A stretch of 64,000 nucleotides of DNA. Source: Mytilus galloprovincialis. Lineage: Eukaryota; Mollusca; Bivalvia; Mytilida; Mytilidae. Under the pieces are notes generated by a model. That model was not told where the DNA came from, did not search any database, and saw only the letters and a program-made list of their open reading frames with translations. A program made the position numbers and the translations under genes. This document shows, in pieces, positions 6,977-63,128 of the stretch; positions within the stretch are counted from its first letter, which is position 1; the number at the start of each line of letters is the position of its first letter. The DNA lies in assembly GCF_965363235.1 (NCBI RefSeq), contig NC_134851.1, positions 20,922,347 through 20,986,346 on the forward strand, read 5' to 3'.

Positions 6977-7571
6977 ATGTTCGACTTTGTTTTAATCATT
7001 TTGTCTGGAAGCGTATTTGAAAAGGTTCACCTGTCTTGTATTTTATTTTTACTGGCTTTTGGAATACTCATAATAATATTACATGTATTTGTATCGGTAT
7101 TCTTGAAGTATGATCACAAAAATTCAGTTGGTTTATTTTTTGCTTTAATAATCGGATTTGTTCATCAATGTTTTTTGTCGGCGAACTGGCTAAAATCAAC
7201 ATGTAATCTAAATGGAATAACTGTGTTCGTGACCGATTGGTACACTGTTCCTGTCGTCTGTTTGATATTGACTATTGGTGTGTTGTTCCTCGAAGAATGT
7301 TCAAAAGATGAGTCTAAAACAAAAATATATACGTATGGTGCCTTCATTTCCTTGGTTTTACTATTAGGTTTTGGAATGGGAATTCATGGCATCAGTAACC
7401 AACATGCCAATTACATGAATTATTATAACTTGAAGTTTCACAAAGCTGTATTTGTAGACAATAAGACTTCACTCGTGAGTTTTGCTTTGGAATATCTTTT
7501 GGTCTATGCTCCAGTTTCTGTGACCCTGCTCTGGAATAGGAAGGAATGCGTGCTTATTAACGGTCAACAAG
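6977..7571 (+). CDS. Gene A exon 1: putative seven-pass membrane protein, segments 1-5
   Basis: No known family recognised. The exon encodes residues 1-198 plus the first base of codon 199. Hydrophobic segments lie at about 18-43, 51-70, 89-106, 120-139 and 166-186. Conserved landmarks are W-L-K-S-T (71-75) after segment 2 and E-Y-x-L-V-Y-A-P (172-179) in segment 5. Loops 1 and 3 are positively charged, which places the N-terminus outside; a sequon N-K-T at 162-164 then falls in an extracellular loop. The in-frame TAG at 6947 supports this ATG. The donor AAG|GTAATG follows QQ in phase 1, and an acceptor (TTTACTGTAG, ending near 6911) implies an upstream untranslated exon. Joined to exon 2 at 10431 it predicts 291 residues. 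A receptor-like role is inferred from topology only. Confidence 0.82.
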
Positions 7572-8534
7572 GTAATGTATATATTCTTTGTTATACAAGT
7601 ATAAGGGTCTCGATGTGAGGTACTCATATCTGTATTCTGTTATTTATATGCCATAATTCTCTATTCTGTTATTTATATCCCATCTCTATTCTTGATATAT
7701 GAGTACCCCAATACTGTCTGTCCTTTATATGTTAATTTCTTTTATTTTCTTTCTCATTTTTTGCAAAGACCAATCGTAACAACATCTGATTCAAACATTA
7801 AATAACACTTTTAGATATTTAGATTATATATTGGCTCTTAATAATGACGACTTCAGTATGTACACTTAAGAGATTTGTCCTTCCGAACTGACTTAAAGCT
7901 AATACTAATAATAATGAACACTGTCCTTTCCTGGATCTTAATATCTAATATAGTAAGCTTAATACCAAAATTTATGATAAAAGAGACGATTTTTCATTTC
8001 CTATTGTTAATCATCCATTTTAAGATGGTTAAGTTCCCTTGTCACATTTTATGCTGTTTAAATGTCTCAACTTGTTCGATTAGCTCGTGTATGTAACAAC
8101 TTATTTGATTTCAACCAAAGAATTCTCTGTATTTCTGAAAACTTATTACACCAGGATTTCAATATCACAAACAAGTCAAAACTATAATATCTTATGTTAA
8201 TATTCTGTATCAAGCCGAAAATATCGGTTTTCACCCCAAAGCTAACTAAACCTTTGAACAGACTTATTTATATAGTTACGATACTGTTATCAAAGATTAA
8301 ATATTTTGGTATTAATAATGATTCACTCATAGGGTCTTTGCATCGGAAATAAACACATCTATTCTTAAACCAGTTGTTCATGTTGTTGGCATGATATGTT
8401 CTTCTCATATATTTTTTATGGTATGTTAATAAACCCCTAACGGGAGGGTTTGTACTTGGTTTTCTTTTGCATGTAACTTGTTTAAATTTGATTAATGCGA
8501 ACAGAATATTTTACACATTATGTCATATACATAT

Positions 8535-8662
8535 ACAATATAAGGTGAATGTCAGAAAAGTATACTTTTTTGTATGAGACTTCGAAAATGTACAAGGGCG
8601 TGGTTCATTTTTGCACACAGTACACAAAGGTTTATATTTTTCTGACATTGAGCTAATATTGT
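8535..8662. mobile_element. Hairpin MITE with about 36-bp terminal inverted repeats
   Basis: The left end ACAATATAAGGTGAATGTCA is matched in reverse complement by the right end, which reads ACAATATTAGCTCAATGTCA when inverted. The match continues inward through AGAAAARTATA. Copies lie at 6003-6139, 17341-17487, about 19705-19805 (left arm partly deleted) and 37103-37232. No coding capacity. Confidence 0.75.
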
Positions 8663-9159
8663 CTTTAAACTGCATCTTGAATAAATACGTTGATAGATAT
8701 TTAAATTGTAAAATTCAGTTTAAACTTATTTTTATCCTTTAAGGATCCCCTGTTTGTGGGAAAACTGATCCATTGCACAACATATAGCTGTGTTACTATA
8801 TTTAGGAAATAAACAAAACTAGTTGCAGTATAAACCAGATTATGTAAAAATAGCACGACTATATATTCAATTTCAGTTTGAATAAACATTTCATAGTTGT
8901 AATTCTATTTTTTAATATTCTACTCGTAGGTAAAAGTAAAGATAATTATTTCTCCAGTTCATTTATAAGATTTTAGTTTGGGACAACTTAACGTGTACGA
9001 TTTTTTTTATAGTTTGGTTTAGAAGAAATATCGACATAGCTAGATAATACCATTAATTATCTAATTACTAACACAGTTCTAAATTAAGTAAATTATTATT
9101 GTTGTATTATACATTAAATACCATAATTTCAAACCTGATATCAACACTTTAAAAATTTA

Positions 9160-10345
9160 CCTGTGAAAAAAAAGTAAAATCACAAAAATACTAAACTCAG
9201 AGGAAAATCAATTCGGAAAGTCCATAATCACATGGCAAAATCAAATAAGAAAACGCATAAAAAACGAATGGACAATAGCTGTCATATTCCTGACTTGGTA
9301 CAGGCATTTTCAAATGTAGAAAATGGTGGATTAAACCTGAATTATAGCGCTAACCCTCTCATTTGATGACAGTCTCATCAAATTCCGTTATATTTACAAT
9401 GATGCGTCAACTAAACAGACACAATATATAAAATAGTCAAAATATTGGTACATCAGTCATCATCGTGTAACAATTTCAAAAGGAACAATTTATCAGAACA
9501 CAAAAACATTTATCCACAAACACATTCATTGATTTGCGTGTCTGTCGGCTGAACATTTTATACGTCACATATATTTGTCGTTCAATATACATACAAACAA
9601 TTTTAACATTTCACATAGGCAATGTTAGCATACAGGGTTAAAAAATCAAAAGTATGTAAAAATAAATTTCAGAAATAGACCGAGATTTAAAATAGTCCAA
9701 AAGTTATATAGAATAAAGTGACTTCACTTTTGTAGCGTATCTATCTATCATGATTATTTTGTGCTGTTTAACGTGGTGTTCGTTTTTTATTCTGTATGAA
9801 AGGCTACTCAAGGTTAAAAAAACTCTGTATTAATAGTTATCAAATGTAACAGGATTATAATTTAATACGCCTGACACGCGTTTCTTCTACATAAGACACA
9901 TCAGTGACGCTCAGATCAAAATAGTTATAAAGCCAAACAAGTACAAAGTTGAAGAGCATTGAGGACCCAAAATTCCAAAAAGTTGTGCCAAATACGGCTA
10001 AGGTAATCTATTCCTGGGATAAGAAATTCCTTAATTTTTCATAAAATTCAAAGTTTTGTAGCAGGAAATTTATAAAAATGACCATATAATTGATATTCAT
10101 GTCAACACCGAAGTGCTGAATACCGTACTGGTGATACCCTTGGGGACAAAACGTCCATCAGCAGTGACATTGACCCAGTGGTGTAAATAGTTATCAAAGG
10201 TACCAGTATTATAGTTTAATACGCAAGAAGCGCGTTTCGTCTACATAAGACGCATCAGTGACGCTCAGATCAAAATAGTTATAAATCCAAACAGGTACAA
10301 AATGAAGAGCAATGAGGACCCAAAATTCCAAAAAGTATTAAAAAT
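9160..10345. repeat. Mussel interspersed repeats within the gene A intron
   Basis: 9160-9440 carries the family marked by CACAAAAATACTAAACTCAG and TTGGTACAGGCATTTTC; its frame corresponds to the 123-codon chance frame in the B copy at 20386. 9835-10015 and 10190-10345 are two tandem copies of the CGTTTCGTCTACATAAGACG repeat separated by a GATACCCTTGGGGACAAAAC stretch. Confidence 0.65.
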
Positions 10346-10430
10346 AACGCAAAATATCTGTCGTATTAATATCCATCTACTGTATATGTCTTCTCCTTTA
10401 GATTTCATTTTACTTTTTTAATTTTTTCAG

Positions 10431-10711
10431 GTAATCATGACGAGCAGTGTATCACGTGTGATAATAATAATATGGTGCAACGATATATCTTAATATTTAT
10501 GTTGTTTGTGATTTGGATCGCGAGACCAATTCTTTGCACTATAAACTTTTATTACAATTATTTTACTCAAGATTATATTCCAAGCATGACACTGTGTATG
10601 GTGTATATTTTTTTACTCTTGGATTTTGGTATCTTCTACTTGAAGAACTTTTCATATTCATTTACATGTAACTCTAGGAATCGACAAATTCAAATACCAG
10701 AGAAGTGTTGA
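10431..10711 (+). CDS. Gene A exon 2: membrane segments 6-7 and tail
   Basis: Acceptor AATTTTTTCAG at 10430 restores the phase-1 codon (Gly199). The exon starts N-H-D-E-Q-C-I-T-C-D (200-209), a C-x2-C motif in the predicted third intracellular loop. Segment 6 (about 217-239) contains the family motif I-W-I-x-R-P; here residue 234 is Cys where every other copy has Trp. Segment 7 is about 249-269, followed by a short polar tail ending K-C, with stop TGA at 10709-10711. Compared with B it has 13 amino-acid differences but one silent change by my count. Confidence 0.82.
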
Positions 10712-22077: not shown

Positions 22078-22358
22078 ATGATCATGACGAGCAGTGTATG
22101 ACGTGTGATAATAATAATATGGTGCAACGATATATCTTAATATTTATGTTGTTTGTGATTTGGATCGCGAGACCAATTCTTTGGACTATAAACTTTTATT
22201 ACAATTATTTTACTCAAGATTATATTCCAAGCATGACACTGTGTATGGTGCATATTTTTTTACTCTTGGATTTTAGTATCTTCTACTTGAGAAACTATTC
22301 ATATTCACTTACGTGTTCTTCTAGCAATCAACAAATTCAAATACCAGATAAGTGTTGA
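22078..22358 (+). CDS. Gene B exon 2: membrane segments 6-7 and tail
   Basis: Acceptor CTTTTCCAG at 22077. The split codon becomes GAT, so the junction reads QQ-D-D-H-D-E-Q-C-M-T-C-D. Segment 6 carries I-W-I-A-R-P with the usual Trp after it, and segment 7 and a serine-rich polar tail follow to TGA at 22356-22358. Thirteen residues differ from A (including G199D, N200D, C234W, Y257H and several in the tail) against one silent difference, while neighbouring intron sequence is nearly unchanged. Confidence 0.82.
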
Positions 22359-28071: not shown

Positions 28072-28373
28072 GCCCGCATCACCATCAGTGTATGACGTGT
28101 GACAATAATAATATGGTACACAGATACACCTTGTTATTCATGATGTGTGTTATTTGGATCGTGAGACCAACTGTTTGGATTATTAACTTCCGATACACTT
28201 TTTTGTCACAAGATATAATTCCAAGCATTACAATGTACATTGTGTATATGACTATACTATGGCATTTTCTACAAGAAGGGTTTGATAAAATCAATGGCAT
28301 CGATCATAGCTGCAATCACAGATTAAATGACTTGTTTGGATTAGAAAAGCAAAAACATCCGATCCTTATATAA
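28072..28373 (+). CDS. Gene C exon 2: membrane segments 6-7 and charged tail
   Basis: Acceptor CCTCTTTCAG at 28071. The split codon gives Gly, then P-H-H-H-Q-C-M-T-C-D-N-N-N, so the C-x2-C motif is preceded by a triple His not present in A/B. Segment 6 has V-I-W-I-V-R-P, segment 7 follows I-I-P-S-I-T, and a 30-residue charged tail ends K-Q-K-H-P-I-L-I before TAA at 28371. The clustered His and Cys next to the splice junction could bind metal, which is inference only. Confidence 0.8.
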
Positions 28374-34965: not shown

Positions 34966-35545
34966 ATGATGTTCGATATTTTTTCATTCAACTTTTCTGA
35001 AAGTTTCGTTCAAAATGCTCATCTGTCCTGCATATTACTTTTTCTGGTTTTGGGAATACTCATATTTCTATTATTTCTATCGATATTCTTGAAGTATGAC
35101 CACACCAACTCTCACGGTTTATTCCTCGCTTTGTTTATCGGATTCATTCATCAAAGTTTTGTGTCAATGAACTGGCTAAAATCAACATATCATCTAGATG
35201 GAATAACTGAGTTCGTGTTCGATCGGTACACTTTTCCTGTTGCCTGTTTTATATTGACTTTTGGAGTGGTGTGTATGACTGAATTTACAAAAGAGGAGTT
35301 TAGAACAAAAATATTTCAAAATGGAAGTTTCATTTCAACTGTTTTATTGCTAGTTTTTGGAATTGGTCTTTACGGTTTCAAACACCAAGATGCAATTTAT
35401 AGCCAAGTAAAGTTTAACAAACCGGAATTAAGCAATATGATAACAATTGTGAGTTATGCTTTAGAATATGTGCTAGTTTATGCTCCACTTACTGTGATCC
35501 TGCTTTGGAACATGAAGGGATGTGTTCTCATCAAAGATCAAAAAG
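34966..35545 (+). CDS. Gene E exon 1: subfamily-1 membrane protein, segments 1-5
   Basis: Encodes 193 residues plus one base from M-M-F-D-I-F. The TGA immediately before the first ATG is in frame, and either of the two adjacent Met codons could be used; the second aligns with A. Five hydrophobic segments, W-L-K-S-T, T-E-F-T-K-E-E-F and E-Y-V-L-V-Y-A-P are intact, and the donor AAAAAG|GTAATT is phase 1. The normal exon 2 is not where expected: the intron reaches the usual pyrimidine tract at 38015, then a 3.2-kb insertion intervenes. The only partner on this strand is 41205-41407, giving a 260-residue product with a shortened segment 7. Intact as an exon, doubtful as a gene. Confidence 0.7.
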
Positions 35546-35591
35546 GTAATTATATGTCAATTTCTTTAGACGCATATATATATAAAGGTCT

Positions 35592-36429: not shown

Positions 36430-36615
36430 TTAGTAGATTACCTTAGCCGTATTTGGCACAACTTTTTTGAATTTTGGGTCCTCAATGCTCTTCAACTTTG
36501 TATTTGTTTGGCTTTTTAACTGTTTTGATCTGAGCGTTACTGATGAGTCTTATGTAGACGAAACGCGCGTCTGGCGTATTAAATTATAATCCTGGTACCT
36601 TTGATAACTATTTAC
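36430..36615 (-). repeat. Inverted copy of the GACGAAACGCGCGTCTGGCG repeat
   Basis: Contains TCTTATGTAGACGAAACGCG and TATAATCCTGGTACCTTTGA. This is one of the cleanest copies in the window. Confidence 0.8.
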
Positions 36616-37102
36616 CCAGCATATAAGCTTAAGAATTCTATTGAAAAACTTAATATTGATACTTATATTATAAATTAGGTTTGCATTTATCATCATTACA
36701 CGGACTTCATTCGTAAATATAAATCAACATGCAGACTATCTTATACAATCAGGTATTTCACATCCAATATTTTATGTAAATATTCTTTATAAAGCCGAAA
36801 AATATCGGTTTTCACCCCAAAGCTAACTAAACCTTTGAACAGACTTATTTGAAAAGGATAAAGTTACGATACCGTTATTAAAGATTGAATTTTTTAGTAT
36901 TAATGATGATTCACTCATAGGGTCTTTGCATCGGAAATAAACACATCGATTCTTGGCATGATATGTTCTTCTGATATATTTTTTGATGGTATGTTAATAA
37001 ACCCCTAACGGGAGGGTTTCTACTTGGTTTTCTTTTGCTTATAACTTGTTTTAATTTGATTAATGCGAACAGAATATTTTACACATTATTTCATATACAT
37101 AT

Positions 37103-37232
37103 ACAATATAAGGTAAATGTCAGAAAAGTATAAACTTTTTTGTATGAGGATTCGAAAATGTAAAAGGGCGAGATTCATTTTTGCGCACAATACATAAAGG
37201 TTTATATTTTTTTGACATTGACCTAATATTGT
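37103..37232. mobile_element. Hairpin MITE in the gene E intron
   Basis: Same element as 8535-8662, ends ACAATATAAGGTAAATGTCA and TTGACATTGACCTAATATTG. The surrounding 36780-37450 is collinear with the A and B introns. Confidence 0.75.
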
Positions 37233-37479
37233 CTTTAAACTGCATCTTAAATCTTACGTTAATAGCTTTTTAAATTGTAAAATTAATTTTAAACTTATTT
37301 TTATCCTTTAAGGAACCTCTGATTGTGGAGAAAGTGTTCCATGATGAAATCGACATTGCACCAAATATATCTGTGTTACTATATTTAGGAAATAAATAAA
37401 AACTTGTTGCAGTACAATCCAGATTACGTAAACTAACACGATAATTATTCAATTTCAGTTTGAAATAAACATTTCATAG

Positions 37480-38024
37480 TTGTAATTATAAGACTCATTA
37501 GTGACGCTCAGATCAACAGAGTTATGAAGCAAAACAAATACAAAGTTAAAGAGCATTGAGGATCCAAAATTCCAAAAAGTTGTGCCAAATACGGCCCAGG
37601 TAATCTATTACTGGGATAAGAAATTCCATAGTTTTTCGAAAAATTCAAAGTTTTGTAGCAGGAAATTATTAATAAAAAAAATGACCATATAATTGATATT
37701 CATGTCAACACCGAAGTGCTGACTACTGTACTGGTGATACCCTTGGGGACAAAACGTCCAACAGCAGTGGCATTGACCCAGTGGTGTAAATAGTTATCAA
37801 AGGTTCCAGGATTATAGTTTAATACACAAGAAGCGCGTTTCGTCTACATAAGACGCATCAGTGACGCTCAGATCAAAATAGTTATAAATCCAAACAGGTA
37901 CAAAATGAAGAGCAATGAGGACCCAAAATTCCAAAAAGTATTAAAAATAACGCAAAATATCTGTCGTATTAATATCCATCTACTGTATATGTCTTCTCCT
38001 TTAGATTTTATTTCACTTTTTTAA
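37480..38024 (+). repeat. 3' portion of the subfamily-1 intron at the E locus
   Basis: Collinear with about 9890-10420 of gene A (two CGTTTCGTCTACATAAGACG repeat copies, then TATGTCTTCTCCTTTAGATT), ending ACTTTTTTAA, 11 bp before where A has its acceptor AG. The next base begins foreign sequence. Confidence 0.75.
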
Positions 38025-38407
38025 TGTATCAAAAGAATGAATTTCCTTCTTCATTAGTGAATGAAATGTTTATGAAAAAATGGATTTTGTGTTTGGATTT
38101 TATCTTAATATTATATTTGGGCATATACTTTAATTTTTTTTTTAATTCATGCTCGTCTCTAGATCTGCAAGTGTTGATCGGGAATAAACACGTGTTACAT
38201 TATGATCAAATCGCAGCTTACCGCCCAAAATTCATGACTTAGTTGAATGATTTTCTTCTAGATTTGCAGCTTATTTTGACGTGTATTACATGAACACTTT
38301 TTGTTTATAGGATCAATCGTGTTTTGGTGAGTTGATAGGGATTTTATCTTTTGAAAAGATTTGATTTTTATTTACTTATTTCTTGTCTTATTTTTATTGA
38401 AATATAC

Positions 38408-38866
38408 ACGTCAGTATCATAATTTCTTTACTTTCAACATTGTCCAAAATACTATTCATATCCATATATTGAAGAAAACATTTATTGACCGAATATTTTT
38501 TTCATAAAGGGGGCGGTATGTTCTATTTTGAGAATATTAACTATTTACTTTTCAAAGCCATCCCCCAATTTTTTTTTGTTTAAATTATCACTATTTACGG
38601 TATTCGGAAAATTAGGAATCGTGCAAAACATTAATTTGTCATCTGCTTGACCATACTAATTTTTTTCTCATACAATTTGGGATCAAAATATCTTTTTTTA
38701 GGAGATAGCCATACCCCCCCCCCCTTTTTTGAAGTTAAATGTCTAATCCCTTAGTGTACTGATATGAATAGTATTTTACTGGAAATGTTTGAAAAAAGAT
38801 ATTAATGCTAACGTAAATATTTTGTTCAATAAAAATACAGGAAATATGTCGGTTAACCAAAAAGTT
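38408..38866. repeat. 459-bp direct repeat, left copy
   Basis: From ACGTCAGTATCATAATTTCT to GTTAACCAAAAAGTT, repeated at 42434-42887. It abuts the outer edge of the left palindrome arm. A C tract is 13 long here and 7 in the right copy. Identity unknown. Confidence 0.8.
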
Positions 38867-41183
38867 TCCTAAATTCACGACCGTTTGAAAATATGAGTTA
38901 TTTCTGAATAAAAAATGCATAAATTTCTAGGATACTTATAAAATAAAAAATTACAAATTATTTAACAAAAATACAATTTGTATTTATCTTTTAAAACAAA
39001 AAAAGTTTTGGCTTTCTTTCGAAAATAAAAATACGGCCACAAATTCAAATTTTGAGCAAATATACAAAATTTCGACCTCATTTAACTCAAAAAGTAGCAC
39101 ATGAAAGTATATATTTTTATTACATATTTAATTTAATCATGCAAAAAATAGCCTATATGGAAATTTTCATCAAACTGTAAATACGGGATCAAAACTGTAT
39201 CGTATGCCCTTAATGAATAAAATATGTTTTAAATCAAAATCACAAAACTCGGAATTATACACTAAGTTACCTTGTTGTCCACTAGGCACGCATGTCGTTA
39301 CGTTCCAGAGCAGGATAAAGGTGACAGGAGCATAAACTAAACCATATTCCAAAACACCGCATACAAAACAACTGTTGTATTTAACCATAAATAAAAGTCC
39401 TCTCAGTATATTCTCATCTGTTTGTTTTACAGCGTATTCAGAATAGAATAAGTCAGACTTGTGGAACTCAATGTTGTGATGATGGCTGCTAAAGCTGTGA
39501 CAAACTCCCATTATGATAACTAGAAGCAATACTAAAGATATGTAAACTCCATATATAAATGTTCTGAGTCTGGTTCTTACTTCCTCTTTTGACCATTCTG
39601 TCATAGATATTACGCTAAGTGTAAGAACAAAACAGGCGACGGGAAATGAGTAGCTATCTAATACGAATGGACTGATTCCATATAATTGATATGTTGATTT
39701 AAGCCAGGTCATGAACGCAAAGCTTTCATGAAAAAATCCAAATAACAAAACAAGAAATAAACTGTTTGAAAATTTGTGATTTTGCTTCAAAAATTTGATC
39801 GGAAGTGCTATCAATATGATTATTCCAAATACCATAGTCAAAGCAATACTCGACAGTTGGAAATATTGAAAGACACTACTGGACGAGATGATTGATGAAA
39901 AATCGGACATTTTTTTTCTTTTCCCTCTTGTTATGGCTTGAATACTGATATAATTTCACTTTAATAAGACAATAAGTCAGAACTCAGTTATATCAGTAGA
40001 GATTTCAAGACCCTGAAAATTTTAATATCCAGATCACGGAACCTCTTGCCGTTTGATTACCTTAGAACGTTCATACACATTCGTCACAACTCGGCTGATT
40101 CCGTACCTTGATACAGACGGAGAGTACCGGATTCACCCGAGGATTGCTGATTGGTTCATTACAGTCAAAGTAACATTTTGAAAAGTTTGGAGTAAGACTA
40201 ATGTGTCAGCTAATAAGTCGATTCCAATATTTCCCGGAGAATTATTATCTAGTAAGCAAACACATTGAAAATCCACAGTAATTTTTCGATCAAGTACAAA
40301 GTACGAAATTATAATATGTTGTTGTCTTGAATATACACGATTTGAGATTGATCGTACTGGACATTAAGATGTATAGATTCCAGTCTCCCTGGTACCGTGA
40401 AAAAGGAAGTGTTCAAAATCCAATTCAAGCATAGAGTTTTCTAGTTAAATTTATTTGTATTGTTACTACACGTTAGATTAATAAATGTCATAAATTTTTT
40501 ATGCACAATATTTTACCCATTGTGCATGTTGTATGTCAAGCAATTATCAACCGGGATCTCACATAAATTTTACTATTTTATATAAAAAAGAATATTTGTG
40601 ATGTGTCAGGTTTACAACATTGTATAACCTGCCGTCTTAAATCAGTTTTATAATCATATTCTACAAAAAGTTTTTTTTTTTTTCATTTTCATAATGTAAC
40701 AGGTTTCGGTACATCGACGAATTTATTGATCATGCAGTTGACGCTTAAGACTTACATGCATATAAATTATATGTAATAAAAATGTTTATAATGAATATTT
40801 TTTGAATAAAATGTATACATAAATTTGAACACAACAAAAGCAATTCGTCTAATAACTTTGATGTGTTTATTGCTTGGTCAATGATGATGATGATGATATT
40901 ATGGTTTATGGTCAAGTGGCAAATATTACATGCATAGATTAACAGAACAGGAAATTATAAATATACAAATGTAATATATCTATGCTTTTGTAAAGGTAAA
41001 GGTCCTTGTACGACTTTGCCCCCCGCAGAGCTGAAGAAAAACAGTACATTAACGGGTGTTACACGGACTCTTTTAAGATGACACACAGACTCTTTTTAGT
41101 TGTTACACGGACACTTTTTATGAATAGAATCACTCGTGCATGATCAGTGAGTTCATGGGCACTTTAACTTTCAATTAGATTTG
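38867..41183 (-). repeat. Left arm of a 2.3-kb palindrome
   Basis: Reverse complement of 42888-45200 with only scattered differences (a 4-bp deletion in the right arm near 43988, a variable poly-A/T run, a few substitutions). It contains exon F, its whole 5' flank and a unique 190-bp inner end with three ACACGGACTC-like repeats. The outer edge cuts through the AGGGCATACGATAC MITE. Confidence 0.85.
39271..39910 (-). pseudogene. F: antisense orphan exon 1 of subfamily 2
   Basis: A 213-codon intact exon 1, differing from exon 1 of G by one amino acid (Gly for Cys just before the E-Y-G-L-V-Y-A-P segment). The phase-1 donor AAG|GTAACTT at 39270-39269 is present, but no exon 2 lies further along the minus strand; the homologous intron ends at 38867 inside a MITE. 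Unspliced, the frame continues to a stop at 39170 for a 246-residue product with five membrane segments. The 5' flank with the candidate promoter block is present, so transcription is possible, but a normal seven-pass product is not. The intact frame is best explained by very recent duplication. Confidence 0.75.
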
Positions 41184-41204
41184 TACTTTTTTAATATTTT
41201 TCAG

Positions 41205-41407
41205 GTAATCATGACGAGCAGTGTATGACGTGTGATAATAATAATATGGTGCAACGATATATCTTAATATTTATTTTGTTTGTGATTTGGATCGCGAGAC
41301 CAATTCTTTGGACTATAAACTTTTATTACAATTATTTTACTCAAGATTATATTCCAAGCATGACACTGTATATGGTGTATATTTTTTTACTCTTGAGTCT
41401 TATGTAG
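41205..41407 (+). CDS. Orphan subfamily-1 exon 2, truncated; candidate exon 2 of gene E
   Basis: Acceptor AATATTTTTCAG at 41204 and the phase-1 continuation N-H-D-E-Q-C-M-T-C-D, segment 6 with I-W-I-A-R-P and the start of segment 7. Family homology stops at 41395 (TTTACTCTTG), where an inverted mussel repeat supplies the last residues L-S-L-M and TAG. The cytoplasmic tail is therefore lost. It would complete E by splicing out a 5659-bp intron that contains F on the opposite strand. Confidence 0.55.
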
Positions 41408-42430
41408 ATGAAACGAGCGTAAGGCGTATTAAATTATAATCCTGGTACCTTTGATAACTATTAATACAGATTTGTCTAACCTTTAGTAACCTTTCATACA
41501 GAATAAAAAACCAAAACCACATTAAACAAAATAGGACAGCACATTAAACAGCACATTAAACAGCACAAAATAAGCATGCATTGTCATTGACTAGATACGG
41601 TACAAAAGTGACGTCACTTAATTCTATATAACTTTTGGACTATTTTAAATCTCGGTCTATTTCTGAAATTTATACTTACATACTTTTGATTTTTTAACCC
41701 TGTATGCTAACATTGCCTATGTGAAATTTTAATTTTTTTTGTATGAACATTGAACGACAAATATATGTGACGTATAACATTTTCTGGCGTCAGACACGCA
41801 AATCAATGAATGTGTTTGTAGATAGATGTTTTTGTTTTCTGTTAAATTGTTCCTTTTAAAATTGTTATCAGATGATGACTGCTGTACCCATATTTTGACT
41901 ATTTTATTTATTGTGTCTTTTTAGTTAACGCATCTTTGTAAATATAACGAAATTCGATGAGACTGTCATCAAAGTGAGAGGTTTAGCGCTATCAAACCAG
42001 GTTTAATCAACCATTTTCTACATTTAAAAATGTCTGTACCAAGTCATGAATATGACAGTTCGTGTCCATTCGTTTTGGATGCGTTTTGTTTTTTGATCTT
42101 GCCATGTGATTATGGACTTTCCGAAATTATTTTCCTCTGAGTTCAGTATTTTTGTGATTTACTTTTTTTCACAGGTAATTTTTAAACTGTTGATATCAGA
42201 GTTGTTATTATGGTATTTGATTTATAATACAACAATGATAATTTACTTAATAGAGAATTGTGTTAGAAATTAGATAATTAATTGTATTATCTAGCTATGT
42301 CGATATTTCTTCTTAACCAAACTATCAAAAAAAAAAAAAATCGTACACGTTTAGTTGTCCCAAACTAAAATCTTATAAATGAACTGGATGAATAATTTTC
42401 TTTACTTTTACCTACGAGTAGAATATTAAA
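41395..42430 (-). repeat. Inverted copy of subfamily-1 intron DNA
   Basis: Reverse complement of about 20.07-21.09 kb (gene B intron), from GAGTCTTATGTAGATGAAAC to ACCTACGAGTAGAATATTAA. It forms the centre of the palindrome together with the exon-2 fragment and the right direct repeat. Confidence 0.75.
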
Positions 42431-42433
42431 AAC

Positions 42434-42887
42434 ACGTCAGTATCATAATTTCTTTACTTTCAACATTGTCCAAAATACTATTCATATCCATATATTGAAG
42501 AAAACATTTATTGACCGAATATTTTTTTCATAAAGGGGGCGGTATGTTCTATTTTGAGAATATTAACTATTTACTTTTCAAAGCCATCCCCCAATTTTTT
42601 TTTGTTTAAATTATCACTATTTACGGTATTCGGAAAATTAGGAATCGTGCAAAACATTAATTTGTCATCTGCCTGACCATACTAATTTTTTTCTCATACA
42701 ATTTGGGATCAAAATATCTTTTTTAGGAGATAGCCATACCCCCCCTTTTTTGAAGTTAAATGTCTAATCCCTTAGTGTACTGATATGAATAGTATTTTAC
42801 TGGAAATGTTTGAAAAAAGATATTAATGCTAACGTAAATATTTTGTTCAATAAAAATACAGGAAATATGTCGGTTAACCAAAAAGTT
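42434..42887. repeat. 459-bp direct repeat, right copy
   Basis: Same sequence and orientation as 38408-38866, ending GTTAACCAAAAAGTT, immediately before the right palindrome arm. Confidence 0.8.
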
Positions 42888-43734
42888 CAAATCTAATTGA
42901 AAGTTAAAGTGCCCATGAACTCACTGATCATGCACGAGTGATTCTATTCATAAAAAGTGTCCGTGTAACAACTAAAAAGAGTCCGTGTGTCATCTTAAAA
43001 GAGTCCGTGTAACACCCGTTAATGTACTGTTTTTCTTCAGCTCTGCGGGGGGCAAAGTCGTACAAGGACCTTTACCTTTACAAAAGCATAGATATATTAC
43101 ATTTGTATATTTATAATTTCCTGTTCTGATAATCTATGCATGTAATATTTGCCACTTGACCATAAACCATAATATCATCATCATCATCATTGACCAAGCA
43201 ATAAACACATCAAAGTTATTAGACAATTGCTTTTGTTGTGTTCAAATTTATGTATACATTTTATTCAAAAAATATTCATTATAAACATTTTTATTACATA
43301 TAATTTATATGCATGTAAGTCTTAAGCGTCAACTGCATGATCAATAAATTCGTCGATGTACCGAAACCTGTTACATAATGAAAATGAAAAAAAAAAAAAA
43401 CTTTTTGTAGAATATGATTATAAAACTGATTTAAGACGGCAGGTTATACAATGTTGTAAACCTGACACATCACAAATATTCTTTTTTATATAAAATAGTA
43501 AAATTTATGTGAGATCCCGGTTGATAATTGCTTGACATACAACATGCACAATGGGTAAAATATTGTGCATAAAAAATTTATGACATTTATTAATCTAACG
43601 TGTAGTAACAATACAAATAAATTTAACTAGAAAACTCTATGCTTGAATTGGATTTTGAACACTTCCTTTTTCACGGTACCAGGGAGACTGGAATCTATAC
43701 ATCTTAATGTCCAGTACGATCAATCTCAAATCGT

Positions 43735-43800
43735 GTATATTCAAGACAACAACATATTATAATTTCGTACTTTGTACTTGATCGAAAAATTACTGTGGAT
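43735..43800 (+). promoter_or_regulatory. Conserved upstream block of gene G
   Basis: GTGTATATTCAAGACAACA, then ATATTATAATTTCG, then TGTACTTGATCGAAAAATTA, corresponding to 24825-24900 before gene C. About 360-420 bp before the start codon. Confidence 0.5.
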
Positions 43801-44156
43801 TTTCAATGTGTTTGCTTACTAGATAATAATTCTCCGGGAAATATTGGAATCGACTTATTAGCTGACACATTAGTCTTACTCCAAACTTTTCAAAATGTTA
43901 CTTTGACTGTAATGAACCAATCAGCAATCCTCGGGTGAATCCGGTACTCTCCGTCTGTATCAAGGTACGGAATCAGCCGAGTTGTGACGAGTTATGAACG
44001 TTCTAAGGTAATCAAACGGCAAGAGGTTCCGTGATCTGGATATTAAAATTTTCAGGGTCTTGAAATCTCTACTGATATAACTGAGTTCTGACTTATTGTC
44101 TTATTAAAGTGAAATTATATCAGTATTCAAGCCATAACAAGAGGGAAAAGAAAAAA

Positions 44157-44796
44157 ATGTCCGATTTTTCATCAATCATCTCGTCCAGTAGTGTCTTTCA
44201 ATATTTCCAACTGTCGAGTATTGCTTTGACTATGGTATTTGGAATAATCATATTGATAGCACTTCCGATCAAATTTTTGAAGCAAAATCACAAATTTTCA
44301 AACAGTTTATTTCTTGTTTTGTTATTTGGATTTTTTCATGAAAGCTTTGCGTTCATGACCTGGCTTAAATCAACATATCAATTATATGGAATCAGTCCAT
44401 TCGTATTAGATAGCTACTCATTTCCCGTCGCCTGTTTTGTTCTTACACTTAGCGTAATATCTATGACAGAATGGTCAAAAGAGGAAGTAAGAACCAGACT
44501 CAGAACATTTATATATGGAGTTTACATATCTTTAGTATTGCTTCTAGTTATCATAATGGGAGTTTGTCACAGCTTTAGCAGCCATCATCACAACATTGAG
44601 TTCCACAAGTCTGACTTATTCTATTCTGAATACGCTGTAAAACAAACAGATGAGAATATACTGAGAGGACTTTTATTTATGGTTAAATACAACAGTTGTT
44701 TTGTATGCTGTGTTTTGGAATATGGTTTAGTTTATGCTCCTGTCACCTTTATCCTGCTCTGGAACGTAACGACATGCGTGCCTAGTGGACAACAAG
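44157..44796 (+). CDS. Gene G exon 1: subfamily-2 seven-pass membrane protein, segments 1-5
   Basis: 213 residues plus one base, closely related to C (about 17 substitutions) and nearly identical to F. I start at the Met in AAAAAAATGTCCGAT. The frame stays open 16 codons upstream to 44109, but that extension exists only because the A run is one base shorter than in C, and the corresponding C sequence is out of frame. Five hydrophobic segments, W-L-K-S-T, T-E-W-S-K-E-E and SGQQ|G phase-1 donor. With exon 2 at 47213 it gives 313 residues. It is the only complete gene at the palindrome. Confidence 0.8.
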
Positions 44797-44856
44797 GTAA
44801 CTTAGTGTATAATTCCGAGTTTTGTGATTTTGATTTAAAACATATTTTATTCATTA

Positions 44857-45477
44857 AGGGCATACGATACAGTTTTGATCCCGTATTTACAGTTTGATGA
44901 AAATTTCCATATAGGCTATTTTTTGCATGATTAAATTAAATATGTAATAAAAATATATACTTTCATGTGCTACTTTTTGAGTTAAATGAGGTCGAAATTT
45001 TGTATATTTGCTCAAAATTTGAATTTGTGGCCGTATTTTCATTTTCGAAAGAAAGCCAAAACTTTTTTTGTTTTAAAAGATAAATACAAATTGTATTTTT
45101 GTTAAATAATTTGTAATTTTTTATTTTATAAGTATCCTAGAAATTTAGGCATTTTTTATTCAGAAATAACTCATATTTTCAAACGGTCGTGAATTTAGGA
45201 AAAAAACGTCATTTTTTGCTGTATATTTATCAAAATAAAAAAAATTGCGCTATTTACAGTTTTATAAAATTGAGTCCACATAATCTCCCTGCAAAATGAA
45301 ACAAAATATTGTTTTAAAAAATGGGGGTCCATGCACTCGTTTTCAAATTAAATCAGTTTGAATGATGAAATTCAGTGGAAAAATGCATCTTTTCCCGACG
45401 TCACAGTTTGACGTCGCCAAAATAACATTTTACGTTAGCAACGTCATTACCTCCCTTGTAAATGTATCTTATGCCCT
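44857..45477. mobile_element. MITE with AGGGCATACGATAC termini in the G intron
   Basis: Left end AGGGCATACGATAC and right end GTATCTTATGCCCT (inverted AGGGCATAAGATAC). Gene C has the empty site (TTCATTAAAATATGAAAGG). No coding capacity. The left palindrome arm holds only its first 344 bp. Confidence 0.75.
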
Positions 45478-47212: not shown

Positions 47213-47514
47213 GCCCGCATCACCATCAGTGTATGACGTGTGACAATAATGTTATGGTACACAGATACGTCTTGTTATTCATGATGTGTGTTATTTGGAT
47301 CGTGAGACCAATTGTTTGGATTATCAACTTCCGGTACACGTTTTTGTCACAAGATATAATTCCAAGCATTACAATGTACATTGTGTATATGACTTTACTA
47401 TGGCATTATCTACAAGAAGGGTTTGATAAAAACAATCGCATCGATCATAGCTGCAATCACAGATTAAATGACTTGTTTGGATCAGAAAAGCAAAAACATC
47501 CGATCCTTATATAA
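47213..47514 (+). CDS. Gene G exon 2: membrane segments 6-7 and charged tail
   Basis: Acceptor CCTCTTTCAG at 47212, then G-P-H-H-H-Q-C-M-T-C-D-N-N-V. Segment 6 has V-I-W-I-V-R-P, and segment 7 follows I-I-P-S-I-T. The tail ends K-Q-K-H-P-I-L-I with TAA at 47512, as in C. Only about eight residues differ from exon 2 of C. Confidence 0.8.
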
Positions 47515-50802: not shown

Positions 50803-51332
50803 TGACGTGTGACAATAATGTTATGGTATAAAAGAGGGACGAAAGATACCAAAGGGACAGTCAAACTCAATAATCTAAAATAAACTGACAACGCCATGGC
50901 TAAAAATGAAAAAGACAAACAGACAAACAATAGTACACATGACACAACATAGATAACTAAAGAATAAACAACACGAACCCAACCACAAACTAGGGGTGAT
51001 CTCAGGTGCTCTGGAAGGGTAAGCAGATCCTACTTCACATGTGGCACCCGTCGTGTTGCTTATGTGATAACAAATCCGGTAAATAGTCCAATTCGGTAGG
51101 TCACATTCATGAAAGGGAAGGGGATTGTAGTTACGACGTAATGAACATATCCGATGCACAACGGTACATCTTAATAATTATGATGTTTGTTCTTTGGATT
51201 GTGAGACCAATTTGTTGGATCATCAACTTTCGTTTCACTTTTTTGTCACATGATTTAATTCCAAGCCTTACAGTGTACACTGATTTCATTCATCATAGCG
51301 GTAAGCACAGATCACATGACTTTCTTGGATAA
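50803..51332 (+). pseudogene. Gene H exon 2, interrupted by a retroelement
   Basis: TGACGTGTGACAATAATGTT (from 50803) is the conserved C-x2-C region. It breaks at about 50829 and resumes at about 51156 with GCACAACGGTACATC, encoding segment 6 with L-W-I-V-R-P. A deletion then removes most of segment 7 (T-V-Y-T-D-F-I-H-H) before the tail and stop at 51330. The acceptor and the His-rich start are also missing. Confidence 0.75.
50830..51155 (-). mobile_element. 5'-truncated RT retroelement inserted into exon 2 of H
   Basis: Left end AAAAGAGGGACGAAAGATAC and right end ACGTAATGAACATATCCGAT match 4404-4727. It comprises only the 3' untranslated part on the minus strand. Target-site duplication not evident. 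Confidence 0.8.
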
Positions 51333-54053: not shown

Positions 54054-54232
54054 ATGTTCATCTTTTCATCAATCCTATCGTCCAGAAGCGTCTTTCAATG
54101 TTTTCAACTGTCCGGCATTGCTTTGACTCTTGTTTTTGGAATGCTGATATTGATAGCACTTCCGCTGAAATTTTTGAAGCATAATCACAAACTTTCACAC
54201 AGTCTATATTTTGTTTTGTTATATTTTGCAAT
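54054..54232 (+). pseudogene. J exon 1, truncated after segment 1
   Basis: M-F-I-F-S-S-I-L-S-S-R-S-V through K-H-N-H-K-L-S-H-S matches H and C for about 56 codons. After Y-F-V-L-L the family sequence stops and unrelated AT-rich DNA follows, with stop at 54249. Segments 2-5 and the donor are missing. Confidence 0.85.
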
Positions 54233-57200
54233 AATATATATAGACATATAAGCAATGCTTTCAATACAAAATGAAAACATTGACTCCGTCATAAACGAAC
54301 CCGCCGACCAGGAAAAACCAACAACCAAGTTACCTTAGTCGATATGGAAACCTGTGTCCAAACCCTAATGCTCGAAAGCTCGTCTCGAGAGGTGTACTTG
54401 GACAATACTTAAAGTTAGCTTATGTTTACATAAACAAAATATCATCAAAATGTGTAATAGCAAACAAAAATACCAATATATAGTACAAAAACAAGAAAAA
54501 ATCAAACAAAAATGCACCAACATTAAATCTGAACTTGACCAGTTCGAAGTTGGCGAGAGAATGGTCTGATAGGGAAATTATTCCGCGAAAAATGACCATT
54601 CACGTGATACTACAATTAATATCACGTGTCCATACATATATTGAAAGAACCGTTAGTACAATTATAATTTTCCTCTATACTTCGAAACGTGGAAAAATGG
54701 AAATATTATGAGTTTAAAAATCATGCGGTTAATCCTAGGTATACTAAAATAATGAAGTGTTGACACAGAACTATGTTCCGCCTTGATGTATATTTGATAG
54801 TGTAATATAACTGTTGAAATTAAAAGGCAACACTATTAGATATTATAGTAACCAATGTAAACTAAGCAAAACCTACAATGTCAGTAAACCATGACTGAGG
54901 GTGCATGACCAAATAATCTCAATCAAATTGAGATATGTCGATGGTATGAATATAACTGCATACCATGTATTATTTTTTGTTGTAAAAAATTACCCTAAAA
55001 CTGACCAAACAAAGAAATTATGCGAAAATGTCAAAGTCAACGAACCATTAGCGAGAGGTCTTGGTTATATAATCTTCGGGAGATAGAATATACAACAACG
55101 GAACACCAAATCTCATGACTTTACCATGGTGGTTTTTCTAAAACTGACCTTTAACAACCTGAAATAAATCGTTGACGCCACCGCCACTGCCGGAACATAC
55201 CTTGATAGATTCGATGAGGCGAGACAGGGATCAACTTTGAAGTCAATTGTATTTGTCATACTAGTCATATATACATGTTACTCTTAATTTATTTAATGCA
55301 AACATATATTAAGAGAAGGTTATCTGTTGACACATAAATCTTGTACATCTCACAAATATGTATACGCCAAATATAGTTTACCTACCTCTTATAGTATCTG
55401 AGACACTTATTACGAAAAATGAAATTGACAAAGGACCAGGAAAACGATATCAAGGTCATATAACCCTGCCAACTGGACATATACATCTAGCAACTATTCA
55501 ATATCATTGACCTACTGCTTATTGTATCTGATAAACGGACCTAATCGGAAACTACATATCCATCAGTGAACTATAAAAATGAGGTCAATGTCAGATGAAT
55601 ACTGCAAATTTGACATGTACACCTAAAACTCATTCTATACTCCGAATGTTGTTGACGTACTGTTTATAGTATCATAGAAACTGACATAAACAAGAAAACT
55701 TGATGTTGACCATTGGAACAATGAAAATATGAAAATGAAGTAATGGTAAGACGAACACTGTGGACTAGACATGACATATTAAACTTATCCCATACATCAA
55801 ATATAGTAGACCTATTGATAAAAGTATCTGAGAATAAAATAAATAAAAATGTCCAAAGGGCAAAATAAAGGACGAAGTTGAAGAGCAGCTATGGTAACCT
55901 AGATACTGACAAAATCATGAAAACTTAAAATTGACCAACGAACCACAAAAATAAAGACAGATGAACCCTGTCAGATGGACATACACACCTAACGATAATT
56001 TTATGCACACCATAAAGTTGACCTACTACTAATAGATTGTGTGAAACAAACCTTATCATGAAATCTATACATTTATAAATGAACCCTAAATTGAGGTCAA
56101 GGCTAGATGAAACGTGCTGGACAGACATGTACATATTACAAATGTTTAAGACACCAGCTATAGTTGACCTTAAAAGTTCACATAATAATGAAAAAAACAA
56201 ATTGACCACAACTTCAGAGTAAGATTCTTTTAAAACAGAAAACATTAACCTGAAATGGAAACGACTATCCTGAGAATGGACTTATCAGAAGCATAATCCC
56301 ATCCTACTACTGTAAAAGGGGCAAAACGGAAAATCCGATAATAATAAAAATTTTACGCATTGTGGATGTGATATGTTTTTATATTATTAGCAGACTTTAT
56401 TTAGAGAAATTATGAGGGTATTTTGAAATTAAATGAATGTAGCAAAATTCAGCAATCAATGAATTGGAAATTTTGCACAAAAACAACTATGATTAGACAG
56501 ATAAAAGACATTTACTTACCAAGGTTTCAACTCCCTCAGGCAAAGTTGACCTTAAATGGATTGGGCTATTTTTTATGTCCTGTTTAGTAATATAGCTCTT
56601 CACCTGTTTCGGTTCTTATACATCCTTAGCATTCAGCTATTCGGCTGTTAACGTTCCTGGTGCAGGTAAATCCAGAAACGGGCTTCATGAAATCAATATA
56701 TTGTGTATCAATAAATTTAGGTCTTATTTGGGCTATAGTGCGGCATTGCCACATTCAAAAACCAATGAAATAAACCTCCTCGAAAGTTTCCCATCAATTG
56801 TATCATGCATTATGCATTATACCAGAAAAACAAAAAACTGAATAATCTTAGCAAATGGTACCTTAATCATCTAGATTTTGCTTTTGCAGAAATTTCCTTG
56901 AAGTGCCTTGTTTTTCACACATTGTACAATCCCATCAAAATGATGGTGTTTTTGTCAAAGGAACTATCATGCATTATGTTTAATTTAGCTCTATAGTTTC
57001 GGAGAATACAAAACAAAAATGTATTTTTCATCAAGGTTCAGTTACAATGTTTCAATTGCTAAGCGAGAGGCGAAAGATACCAATGGGATATTCAAACTCA
57101 TAAGTCGAACGCAAACTGACAATACCATGGTAAAGAATGGAAAACGACAAACAAACAAACAAACAAACAACAGTATACAAAACATAACATAGAGAATTAT

Positions 57201-57706
57201 AGATTGAGCAACAAAAACCTCGCCTAGAAACGGGAATGATCTCAGGTGCTTTGGAAGGGTAAACAGATCCTTCTGCAAATTTTGCATCCGCGCGAAAGTG
57301 CATTTCGCCCTTTGTAAAGCGTTTCTTGGAGCCAGTGTCTTGCCTAAAATTGCTGTTGTAAGTGCAAAAGTGTAATGTGTAATGTTGACAACTAAAACTA
57401 AGTCCAGTTATGAGTAAAATACACATTTTTTTATTTAGATCGAATTTGTCTTTCAGATGCTATTGGAGAAGCTTCTGCTAAAGTTTCATAACATGTTATG
57501 AAGATTAACAATAAAGCACTTACAACGTATTTTAAGATTGTTATGTTCGGTTTATCGACAAAATGTTGCAAACTCGACAGAAGACCTTATTCTTGAAAAT
57601 GTTAAAGTAGCAAAAATCTTCAATATATATCTACTATATGTTTCTTCTTTGTACAATTTTCTTCTTAATGATAATCTTGAGATACTTTATTTTCAGACGA
57701 GCATCA
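54233..57706. other. Rearranged DNA between the two J exons
   Basis: Contains inverted copies of the TTGACCTCATTTTCATGG family (about 55430-56190), similar to 50040-50790 in H, and a fragment of the RT retroelement (about 57060-57290). Parts near 54750-54900 resemble 49410-49600 in H. No intact exon seen. Confidence 0.55.
57060..57290 (-). mobile_element. 3'-end fragment of the RT retroelement
   Basis: GAGGCGAAAGATACCAATGG, then ACAATACCATGG and GATCTCAGGTGCTTTGGAAG. A diverged copy of the family at 4404, with a four-fold AAAC/CAAA short repeat at 57153-57171. The two minus-strand frames here are shadows. Confidence 0.65.
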
Positions 57707-57952
57707 CGAGCAGTGTATGACGTGTGACAATAATAGTATGGTGCAGCGATACATCTTAATGTTTATGATGTTTGTGATTTGGATTGTGAGACCAATTTGT
57801 TGGATTTTTTTTGGTCACAAGATATAGTTCCAAGCGTTACAATGTACATTTTGTATATTCCTATGCTTTGGTATTTTCTACAGCAAGGTTTCTTTTAAGA
57901 AAGATTCCATTCATCATAGCTATAAACACAGATTCAATGACTTTCTTTGATC
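57707..57952 (+). pseudogene. J exon 2, frameshifted
   Basis: Acceptor TTATTTTCAG at 57706 and D-E-H-H-E-Q-C-M-T-C-D-N-N-S in frame, then segment 6 with V-I-W-I-V-R-P. A deletion after C-W-I shifts the frame and gives an early TAG (57824). The other frame still encodes W-S-Q-D-I-V-P-S-V-T and segment-7-like residues to a TAA. Family sequence fades after GATTCAATGACTTTCTTTGA. Confidence 0.85.
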
Positions 57953-59590: not shown

Positions 59591-59597
59591 CCTATAT

Positions 59598-62150: not shown

Positions 62151-62215
62151 TGCATATTCAAGACTACATAATATTATTATACCTTGTGTTTTACTAGATC
62201 GATCCACTACACACA
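62150..62215 (+). promoter_or_regulatory. Conserved upstream block of gene I
   Basis: GCATATTCAAGACTACATAA, then TATTATTATACCTTGTG, then TTTTACTAGATCGATCCACT. It is the intact form of the block that is split at the E locus, about 340-400 bp before the start codon. Confidence 0.5.
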
Positions 62216-62256
62216 TTTAAAACCACTTATCTTTGTGTGAAACTGAACAAACCATC

Positions 62257-62484
62257 ATGGAGTACTTTTCTCATCAAAATGGAACACATATACCTGTGTG
62301 GGTAACAGTCACTTGCAGACATATATATATATTACCGAAAATATTATGGCGTCTCACAAACCAAATTTTTGCGCTGATTGTATCAACCAATACAAAATCG
62401 AACTGGAATCTTAAATTGTATTACAAGTATTGCAGTTTGTTACAAATTGAACTTAAACTGTATCATTTTTGTTATTTACTATAG
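62257..62484 (+). other. Short frame upstream of gene I, counterpart of 34247-34501
   Basis: Reads M-E-Y-F-S-H-Q-N-G-T-H-I then an 11-residue stretch missing in the E copy, then T-N-T-K-S-N-W-N. It terminates at the TAG of the acceptor-like TTTACTATAG before the presumed 5' untranslated exon of I. Leader exon, uORF or noncoding flank cannot be told apart. Confidence 0.3.
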
Positions 62485-62548
62485 CTGATGAACCGATGAA
62501 TCATCGAGTCAGAACAGAAGTGAAAGACAAGAAAGCCAGCACGAGTGA

Positions 62549-63128
62549 ATGATGTTCGACATTTTTTCATTCAACTTTTCTGAAAGTTTCGTTGAAAATG
62601 TACATCTGTCCTGCATATTACTTTTTCTGGTTTTGGGAATGCTCATTCTTATATTATTTCTATCGACATTCTTAAAGTATGACCACACAAATTCACACAG
62701 TTTATTCCTCGCTTTGTTTATCGGATTCATTCAGCAAAGTTTTGTGTCAATGAACTGGCTAAAATCAACATATCATCTAGATGGAATTACTGAGTTCGTG
62801 TTCGATTGGTACACTTTTCCTGTTGCCTGTTTTATATTGACTTTTGGAGTGGTGTGTATGACTGAAATTTCAAAAGAGGAGTTTAGAACAAAAATATTCC
62901 AAAATGGAGTTTTCATTTCAACGGTTTTGTTGCTAGTTTTTGGAATTGGTGTTTACGGTTTCAATAACCAAGATGCAAATTATAGCCAAGTAAAGTTTAA
63001 CAAACCTGAATTAGGCAATATGATAACAATCGTGAGTTATGCTTTAGAATATGTGTTAGTTTTTGCTCCACTTACTGTGATTCTGCTCTGGAACATGAAG
63101 GGATGTGTTCTCATTAAAGATCAAAAAG
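62549..63128 (+). CDS. Gene I exon 1: subfamily-1 membrane protein, segments 1-5
   Basis: 193 residues plus one base, M-M-F-D-I-F start as in E (about 15 substitutions between them). Five hydrophobic segments, W-L-K-S-T, T-E-I-S-K-E-E-F, E-Y-V-L-V-F-A-P and the phase-1 donor AAAAAG|GTAAAT after D-Q-K are present. A short upstream frame overlaps the start at TGATG. Its 5' flank is the most complete of the E/I pair. Exon 2 must lie beyond the window, so completeness cannot be judged. Confidence 0.78.

Follow-up and report, generated by a model that had tools for sequence, protein, structure and literature searches.

A tandem array of two-exon genes in Mytilus galloprovincialis for a seven-pass membrane protein family that may be receptor-like

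The 64,000-nucleotide stretch of Mytilus galloprovincialis DNA analysed here (the window) carries a tandem array of genes, each with two coding exons, for a family of seven-pass membrane proteins, and homologous family members were found at five sites of the same genome. We give about even weight to the reading that the array encodes unclassified GPCR-like seven-transmembrane (7TM) receptors that lie outside Pfam and would act like G-protein-coupled chemoreceptors or orphan receptors. A more specific version is put forward tentatively: an undescribed GPCR-fold receptor family, marked by outer Asp, Glu, Arg and Asp residues near TM3, TM5, TM6 and TM7, by the R-P of TM6 and, in the third inner loop, by a CxxC, which would predate the split between the members on three contigs (C3, C4 and C14, the last carrying the array) and of which one branch would be growing into a tandem array through recombination of exons and inverted duplication. 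We infer the receptor function from sequence; seven transmembrane segments and an outside N-terminus are by themselves insufficient to define a GPCR.

Gene content and rearrangement of the array

Of exon 1 the window has eight complete copies and of exon 2 seven, in line with the original count of at least eight and seven; two further exon-1 copies are decayed. The complete exon-1 open reading frames begin at the first coordinate listed below, except copy E, which begins at 39910 on the minus strand. Product lengths are those expected from the predicted splicing.

6977..7571, plus strand: gene 1 exon 1 (copy A), encoding TM1-5
10431..10711, plus strand: gene 1 exon 2, encoding TM6-7 and the stop; spliced product 291 aa
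18134..18728, plus strand: gene 2 exon 1 (copy B)
22078..22358, plus strand: gene 2 exon 2; spliced product 291 aa
25252..25891, plus strand: gene 3 exon 1 (copy C)
28072..28373, plus strand: gene 3 exon 2; spliced product 313 aa
34502..34685, plus strand: decayed exon-1 fragment with stops in frame
34966..35545, plus strand: gene 4 exon 1 (copy D, J-type)
38865..45202, strand not given: inverted repeat with arms 38865-41191 and 42880-45202, pieces 99-100% identical
39271..39910, minus strand: exon-1 copy E, one amino acid different from copy F; no same-strand exon 2 found in the window
41205..41407, plus strand: gene 4 exon 2, gene-1/2-type, TM7 cut near 41394; spliced product 260 aa
44157..44796, plus strand: gene 5 exon 1 (copy F)
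47213..47514, plus strand: gene 5 exon 2; spliced product 313 aa
47956..48589, plus strand: exon-1 copy G
51100..51332, plus strand: diverged exon-2 copy lacking QCMTCD, TM7 short, acceptor uncertain (51100 or 51121); probably decaying
54054..54221, plus strand: exon-1 fragment (copy I), 56 residues of homology and none beyond
57697..57827, plus strand: exon-2 pseudogene copy with an early stop
62549..63128, plus strand: gene 7 exon 1 (copy J); exon 2 outside the window, from C14:20986647; product 272 aa

Four intact genes lie wholly within the window, and the remaining pieces are chimeric, unpaired or decayed, apart from J. This copy had been taken for truncated, which is wrong: it has a full exon 1 with its donor, and its exon 2 begins ~300 bases beyond the window end, making J a fifth complete gene. 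In each gene the first exon supplies TM1-5 and the second TM6-7, and the predicted introns are phase 1 and GT-AG, giving joined proteins of exactly the 291 and 313 residues named beforehand. All eight complete exon-1 copies carry the donor (CAA/AAA)AG, followed across the exon boundary by GTAA, and six of the seven exon-2 copies have a phase-1 CAG acceptor, the copy at 51.1 kb offering poor candidates only. The position of the intron, between TM5 and TM6, and its phase are common to the C14, C3 and C4 members.

The two interleaved subfamilies that had been proposed are borne out, with genes 1, 2, 4 and J (g1, g2, g4, J) of one type and genes 3, 5 and G (g3, g5, G) of the other, E being nearly identical to F. 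Gene 4 arose by recombination of two kinds of gene, with a J-type exon 1 and a gene-1/2-type exon 2, the latter cut off at an inversion breakpoint; the inverted duplication is either young or an assembly error. The array displays gene birth and death: tandem genes that are nearly identical, a chimera with swapped exons and the inverted duplication (or assembly error).

Topology, conserved residues and extent of the family

Seven hydrophobic peaks occupy common columns of a 12-member alignment, and K+R counts are greater in loops 1, 3, 5 and the C-terminus than in the N-terminus and loops 2, 4 and 6 in all 12 spliced members. From hydropathy and charge counts alone, the N-terminus is therefore predicted to lie outside in 12 of 12, the topology that had been proposed from the window. 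In genes 1 and 2 an additional but weaker hydrophobic stretch (mean 1.43) adjoins TM1, at residues 1-19. Receptors of the insect OR/GR type have their N-terminus inside, and the charge rule in all 12 members rules against that assignment.

The motifs originally described at fixed places are conserved to different degrees. W-L-K-S-T and E-Y-x-L-V hold in all eight complete exon-1 copies of the window, but the exact Y-A-P that follows is kept in six (G has YAL and J has FAP), and QC[MI]TCD and IWIxRP are each kept in six of the seven exon-2 copies, the 51.1 kb copy being the exception. When the intact members from C14, C3 and C4 are taken together, 19 residues are invariant in 11 of 11, including E172-Y173, P179, C205, C208, R230-P231 and D246 (gene 2 numbering throughout). 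Five invariant charges, K73, D87, E172, R230 and D246, fall on the predicted outer side, at sites within the loop between TM2 and TM3, where TM3 and TM7 begin at the outer face, and in the outer third of both TM5 and TM6, and an invariant CxxC lies within the TM5-TM6 loop, which is predicted to be inner.

Close pairs aside, protein identity among the exon-1 copies of the window is 48-65%, and dN/dS, where computable, is mostly 0.3-0.6. Fisher tests of constraint were significant in six of eight tested pairs (g1-g3, w=0.34, p=3.8e-12, the lowest; g1-J, w=0.42, p=8.6e-7; C3a-C3b, p=0.0003; 39a-39b, p=0.0005), and by these substitution counts the older pairs are under purifying selection. The youngest pairs are not separable from neutral (g1-g2, w=0.77, p=0.37; g3-g5, w=0.67, p=0.19).

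Across the 1.38 Gb genome there are 16 exon-2 copies, 13 on C14, two on C3 and one on C4, with a worst family E-value of 6.8e-6 and the next match at 0.9; 11 intact two-exon members were found genome-wide, with conserved splice sites. The tandem array is present as proposed, but the family is not solely local to it. Because diverged, collinear relatives occur elsewhere on C14 and on C3 and C4, we consider the family older than the array. Profile matches were controlled with 1212 decoys, some of which reached E 1e-9 because block shuffles retain family words. The C14 profile scored C3a at 71.9 bits and C3b at 63.2 against a best decoy of 24.5, and C4 at 11.2, under some decoys. With the C3 model, C4 (65.0), g1 (50.9) and g2 (46.9) exceeded the best decoy (34.0), and the seven other C14 members, at 32.4 to 8.2, fell under it. 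The C4 single-sequence model gave C3b 76.4, C3a 69.3, g3 30.4, the best decoy 23.6 and g5 18.3, with no C14 member besides g3 and g5 among the matches listed. Therefore, C4 joins the family via C3 and via exon 2. Exon-1 queries from C3 and C4 gave no significant match to C14 (E 0.39 and 0.11) or to one another. In the tree, four of nine inner branches are starred and the C4 branch is long, and we used it for the deep split and the close pairs only.

Homology searches and alternative readings

The description of the family as unrecognised withstood the HMM searches: no family was recognised in Pfam, NCBIfam, PHROG or PDB sequences, all matches being weak and below the cut-off where one exists. 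In hmmscan, no Pfam GPCR family, including PF00001 and Srw, was listed up to E 10 for eight members and three C3/C4 members, a listing to be read knowing that the HMMER filters discard most weak matches, and three profiles matched no GPCR in the PDB. Further weak matches with E below 0.02, to PHO4 (E 0.0032), DUF4006 (0.0076) and VCA0040-like (0.013) in Pfam, all below cut-off, and to SCO7613_CTERM in NCBIfam (E 0.0027) came from one member each, and we rejected the weak library matches because they are likely composition effects. No relatives were found in viral contigs or prokaryote genomes, where an animal gene is hardly to be expected. We recognised no paper on the family in the literature, which is weak evidence since a nameless family is not searchable by name.

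The invariant Glu and Arg in the membrane and the inner CxxC could also serve catalysis, transport or metal binding. The family could instead be a non-receptor seven-pass protein, namely an enzyme, a transporter or a channel whose active or gating site would be formed by the conserved charges or the CxxC. Acyl_transf_3 (PF01757) points the same way in two of the three C3/C4 members, with E 0.00065 and 19.3 bits in C3a, but this score is under the 31-bit cut-off and the match is absent for C4, and we rejected the assignment. The 12 weak Pfam families among the eight members were each matched by one member only, and the predicted topology places the invariant charges on the outer side, away from the CxxC. 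We regard this reading as unlikely.

That the family is a branch of the class A (rhodopsin-like) chemoreceptors, so strongly diverged that HMMs miss it and its signature residues are lost, is distinctly unlikely in our view. The hallmarks of class A are DRY, NPxxY, CWxP, a TM1 Asn, a TM2 Asp and a TM4 Trp. Inspection of the alignments upheld the original observation that DRY and NPxxY are missing, and the other four are missing as well; the arginine at the end of TM3 (D/E-R-Y/C) is not invariant among the 11 members, TM6 reads IxRP and TM7 lacks NPxxY. The class A branch is consistent with the outside N-terminus by charge, the TM5 proline and the abundance of class A genes in this genome (149 PF00001 matches). 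It is also consistent with a Cys just before TM3 and another in the TM4-TM5 loop of C3a, C3b and C4, which are the class A disulfide positions; the Cys at the TM3 start is not kept in the window members. Against it stand the absence of any GPCR model from the matches listed up to E 10, a conserved set made of different residues, and the TM5-TM6 intron common to C14, C3 and C4.

That the array is decaying, the remains of a family that once existed and of which most genes are now silent, is very improbable: at least five pieces in the window have decayed, lack a partner or are cut (the fragments at 34502 and 54054, copy E, the second exon of gene 4 and the copy at 57697) and the youngest pairs are not separable from neutral, but the intact members with conserved splice sites and the constraint in most tested pairs argue against it.

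The GPCR-like receptor reading draws on the seven shared segments with their charge pattern, the 19 invariant columns, the two cysteine positions and the N-linked sequons near the N-terminus of the C3 and C4 members, the constraint on the older pairs and the clustered duplication with pseudogenes. Against it count the GPCR searches without a listed match, the missing class A residues, the TM3-start Cys not kept in the window members, the youngest pairs and the extra N-terminal stretch of genes 1 and 2. If the proteins are GPCR-like receptors, K73, D87, E172, R230 and D246 might surround a polar pocket that binds a small ligand from outside, and the prolines in TM5 and TM6 might let the helices move. 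The TM5-TM6 loop on the inner side and its CxxC, together with a cysteine of the C-tail, could serve contact with a signalling partner, lipidation or metal binding. Tandem duplication would diversify the receptors, with duplication, recombination and decay varying ligand preference. The genome would then hold a receptor family missed by profile-based GPCR catalogues; otherwise it holds a 7TM family that is under constraint, lacks annotation and has diverged branches on three contigs. The common signature offers a means of finding the family in other molluscs, and the conserved charges and CxxC are concrete sites for testing.

Comparison with known 7TM families

The mussel family is like class A GPCRs (PF00001) in its N-out seven-pass topology by charge and its TM5 proline, but lacks their signature residues and HMM match. 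Srw (PF10324), described as a 7TM chemosensory family of nematodes and other protostomes and reported in molluscs, is rhodopsin-related and present in Pfam, whereas the mussel family has no Srw match (PMC3963977). GPRch3, a choanoflagellate GPCR family with metazoan homologues, is like the mussel family, as far as its published description goes, in having seven transmembrane segments between short termini and in resembling no described family, a comparison by description only (PMC12716839). Among molluscs, AcCRa, AcCRb and AcCRc of Aplysia californica are 7TM candidate chemoreceptors with a short N-terminus; the AcCRb subfamily encodes 319-364 residues, and the genes are chiefly single-exon, AcCRa having one conserved intron (PMC2700072). 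By that account the AcCRs are of the rhodopsin-like kind and conserve an arginine (ERC) after TM3 (PMC2700072), whereas the mussel family keeps no arginine there, has no rhodopsin match and carries a TM5-TM6 intron. The two have in common that they are molluscan, 7TM and genomically clustered, and the clustered duplication with pseudogenes in the mussel array resembles, by analogy, the clustering described for the Aplysia candidate chemoreceptors (PMC2700072).

Array of two-exon genes

We searched an assembly of 1,384,861,812 bases in 331 contigs, in which the window occupies C14:20922347-20986346, C14 being contig NC_134851.1. The tandem array of the original prediction was recovered by stop-to-stop ORFs, a motif scan and self-tblastn as eight complete exon-1 copies (TM1-5) and seven exon-2 copies (TM6-7), with two decayed exon-1 copies besides. 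The donor sequence, (CAA/AAA)AG followed across the boundary by GTAA, is present in all eight complete exon-1 copies, and a CAG acceptor preserving phase 1 in six of the seven exon-2 copies, the one at 51.1 kb offering only poor acceptor candidates. Splicing would give the predicted 291-aa product for genes 1 and 2 and the predicted 313-aa product for genes 3 and 5; gene 4 would give 260 aa. Exon-1 copy J, previously called truncated, is instead gene 7, with a 272-aa product whose exon 2 starts ~300 bases past the window end. Exon-1 copy E lies on the minus strand and has a single amino-acid difference from copy F; self-tblastn found no exon 2 for it on that strand within the window.

Copies A, B, D and J each have a TAG resembling an acceptor, together with a pyrimidine-rich run, ~65 bases upstream of the ATG (6911, 18068, 34900 and 62484), hinting at a non-coding first exon farther upstream. 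The window also holds two other kinds of ORF. A hydrophobic ORF at 57042-57459 (minus strand) has an LPEHLRS theme and then long hydrophobic runs; ORFs of this type recur near several family loci (L035:6499-6729, L041:3380-3646, L062:3780-4103), and are probably a dispersed repeat. The 123-aa ORF at 2665-3036 (plus strand) has no Pfam match and may resemble mobile-element ORFs of mussel genomes.

Duplication, exon exchange and an inverted repeat

Genes 1 and 2 form an 11 kb tandem pair with 98% identical exon-1 proteins. By its sequence, gene 4 is a recombinant, exon-swapped chimera, and lies among repeats:

34966-42432, gene 4, J-type exon 1 with gene-1/2-type exon 2
38865-41191 and 42880-45202, arms (~2.3 kb each) of an inverted repeat carrying exon-1 copies E and F, pieces 99-100% identical
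38406-38698 and 42432-42724, direct repeat of 293 bases, 100% identical

Over 34888-36408, which takes in gene 4 exon 1 and the start of its intron, identity to the J unit is 85.7%. Farther along, the intron has stretches that match genes 1 and 2, and exon 2 shares ~96% DNA identity with theirs over 215-228 bases. This exon ends abruptly at ~41394, so that the product is cut in TM7; beyond the break, which falls in the region of the inverted repeat, gene-1/2-type intron sequence runs in the opposite direction. The inverted repeat (38865-45202) could reflect either a recent duplication or a misassembly. As context, a paper on the Mediterranean mussel (PMC7653742) announces in its title massive gene presence-absence variation that shapes an open pan-genome.

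Family members across the genome and their constraint

A self-made exon-2 consensus of 62 residues found at least 16 exon-2 copies genome-wide (13 on C14, two on contig C3, one on contig C4; E 3.2e-18 to 6.8e-6), the remaining four of the 20 listed matches having E 0.9 upward. Eleven two-exon members are intact, five of them in or touching the window. Outside it lie:

C14:21.03 Mb, exon 1 divided between two overlapping frames, exon 2 open
C14:39.10-39.13 Mb, three genes, all intact
C14:43.65 Mb, diverged copy, exon 1 open, first part of exon 2 including the CxxC missing behind a stop; probably a pseudogene
C3:28.36 and 28.39 Mb, two genes, both intact
C4:82.97 Mb, one intact gene

The C14 and C3 members are one family: the C14 profile scored 71.9 bits against one C3 member (the highest of 1212 decoys, shuffled or reversed, reached 24.5), and hhalign placed C14 and C3+C4 collinearly over 270 columns with 98.6% probability. 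In the reverse search, the C3 model placed genes 1 and 2 above every decoy, but not the other seven of nine C14 members. The C4 member is linked through C3 (65.0 bits with the C3 model, best decoy 34.0; hhalign 98.4%), the C14 profile scoring it directly at 11.2 bits, lower than some decoys. Intron place and phase are identical among C14, C3 and C4 members, and the tree sets C3+C4 apart from C14.

Exon-1 pairwise dN/dS, where computable, is mostly 0.3-0.6. Of eight pairs compared over the whole CDS, six are depleted in nonsynonymous changes (Fisher p 4.8e-4 to 3.8e-12). The other two, which are the youngest, cannot be told from neutral: genes 1-2 (w 0.77, p 0.37) and genes 3-5 (w 0.67, p 0.19). 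Thus, protein constraint acted on the family as a whole, whereas each young copy may or may not be in use today. The original observation is borne out; the family is genuine, has been constrained and predates the array.

Topology, invariant residues and relation to known receptors

The seven predicted hydrophobic segments appear as seven peaks at common columns in the weighted hydropathy profile of 12 spliced members, genes 1 and 2 having an additional weaker stretch at residues 1-19. In 12 of 12, the odd-numbered loops (1, 3 and 5) and the C-tail are richer in K+R than the N-terminus and loops 2, 4 and 6, which places the N-terminus outside, as originally proposed. Nineteen columns are invariant across the 11 intact members (gene 2 numbering):

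G29, L53, G60, F61, L72, K73, I81, D87, L129, E172
Y173, P179, C205, C208, L219, I228, R230, P231, D246

By predicted topology, D87 marks the outer start of TM3 and D246 that of TM7, while E172 is in the outer third of TM5 and R230 in that of TM6. K73 falls in the loop joining TM2 to TM3, and C205-x-x-C208 in the inner loop between TM5 and TM6. A C-tail cysteine occupies one column in nine of the 11. The C3 members carry a second CxxC, CKQC, in the C-tail, making a four-cysteine metal site conceivable there.

An outer polar pocket with an inner contact loop is the pattern we would expect of a receptor, and an unclassified GPCR-like surface receptor is the most likely mechanism, at about even chances. 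A seven-pass membrane protein that is not a receptor, a main rival, is rather unlikely. Pfam scans up to E 10 listed a GPCR model for none of eight members, nor for three C3/C4 members; PDB profile searches gave nothing relevant, and no NCBIfam or PHROGs family was matched by two of the eight. The PF00001 positive control gave at least 149 matches in the same genome (147 of 1748 candidates scored), though alone it could not reveal weak members; none of the matches listed lay at a family locus. The generally known class A signature residues are absent from the family, and a diverged class A branch, the other main rival, is unlikely. C3 and C4 members do have a cysteine ahead of TM3 and one within the TM4-TM5 loop, the positions at which class A has them; window members lack the one before TM3.

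In molluscs it is not rare for a gene family to be lineage-specific and unrecognised. GPRch3 shows that GPCR families resembling none described so far continue to be reported (PMC12716839). The Aplysia candidate chemoreceptors are, like the mussel family, clustered 7TM genes, but they are rhodopsin-like and chiefly single-exon, with a conserved arginine after TM3 (PMC2700072).
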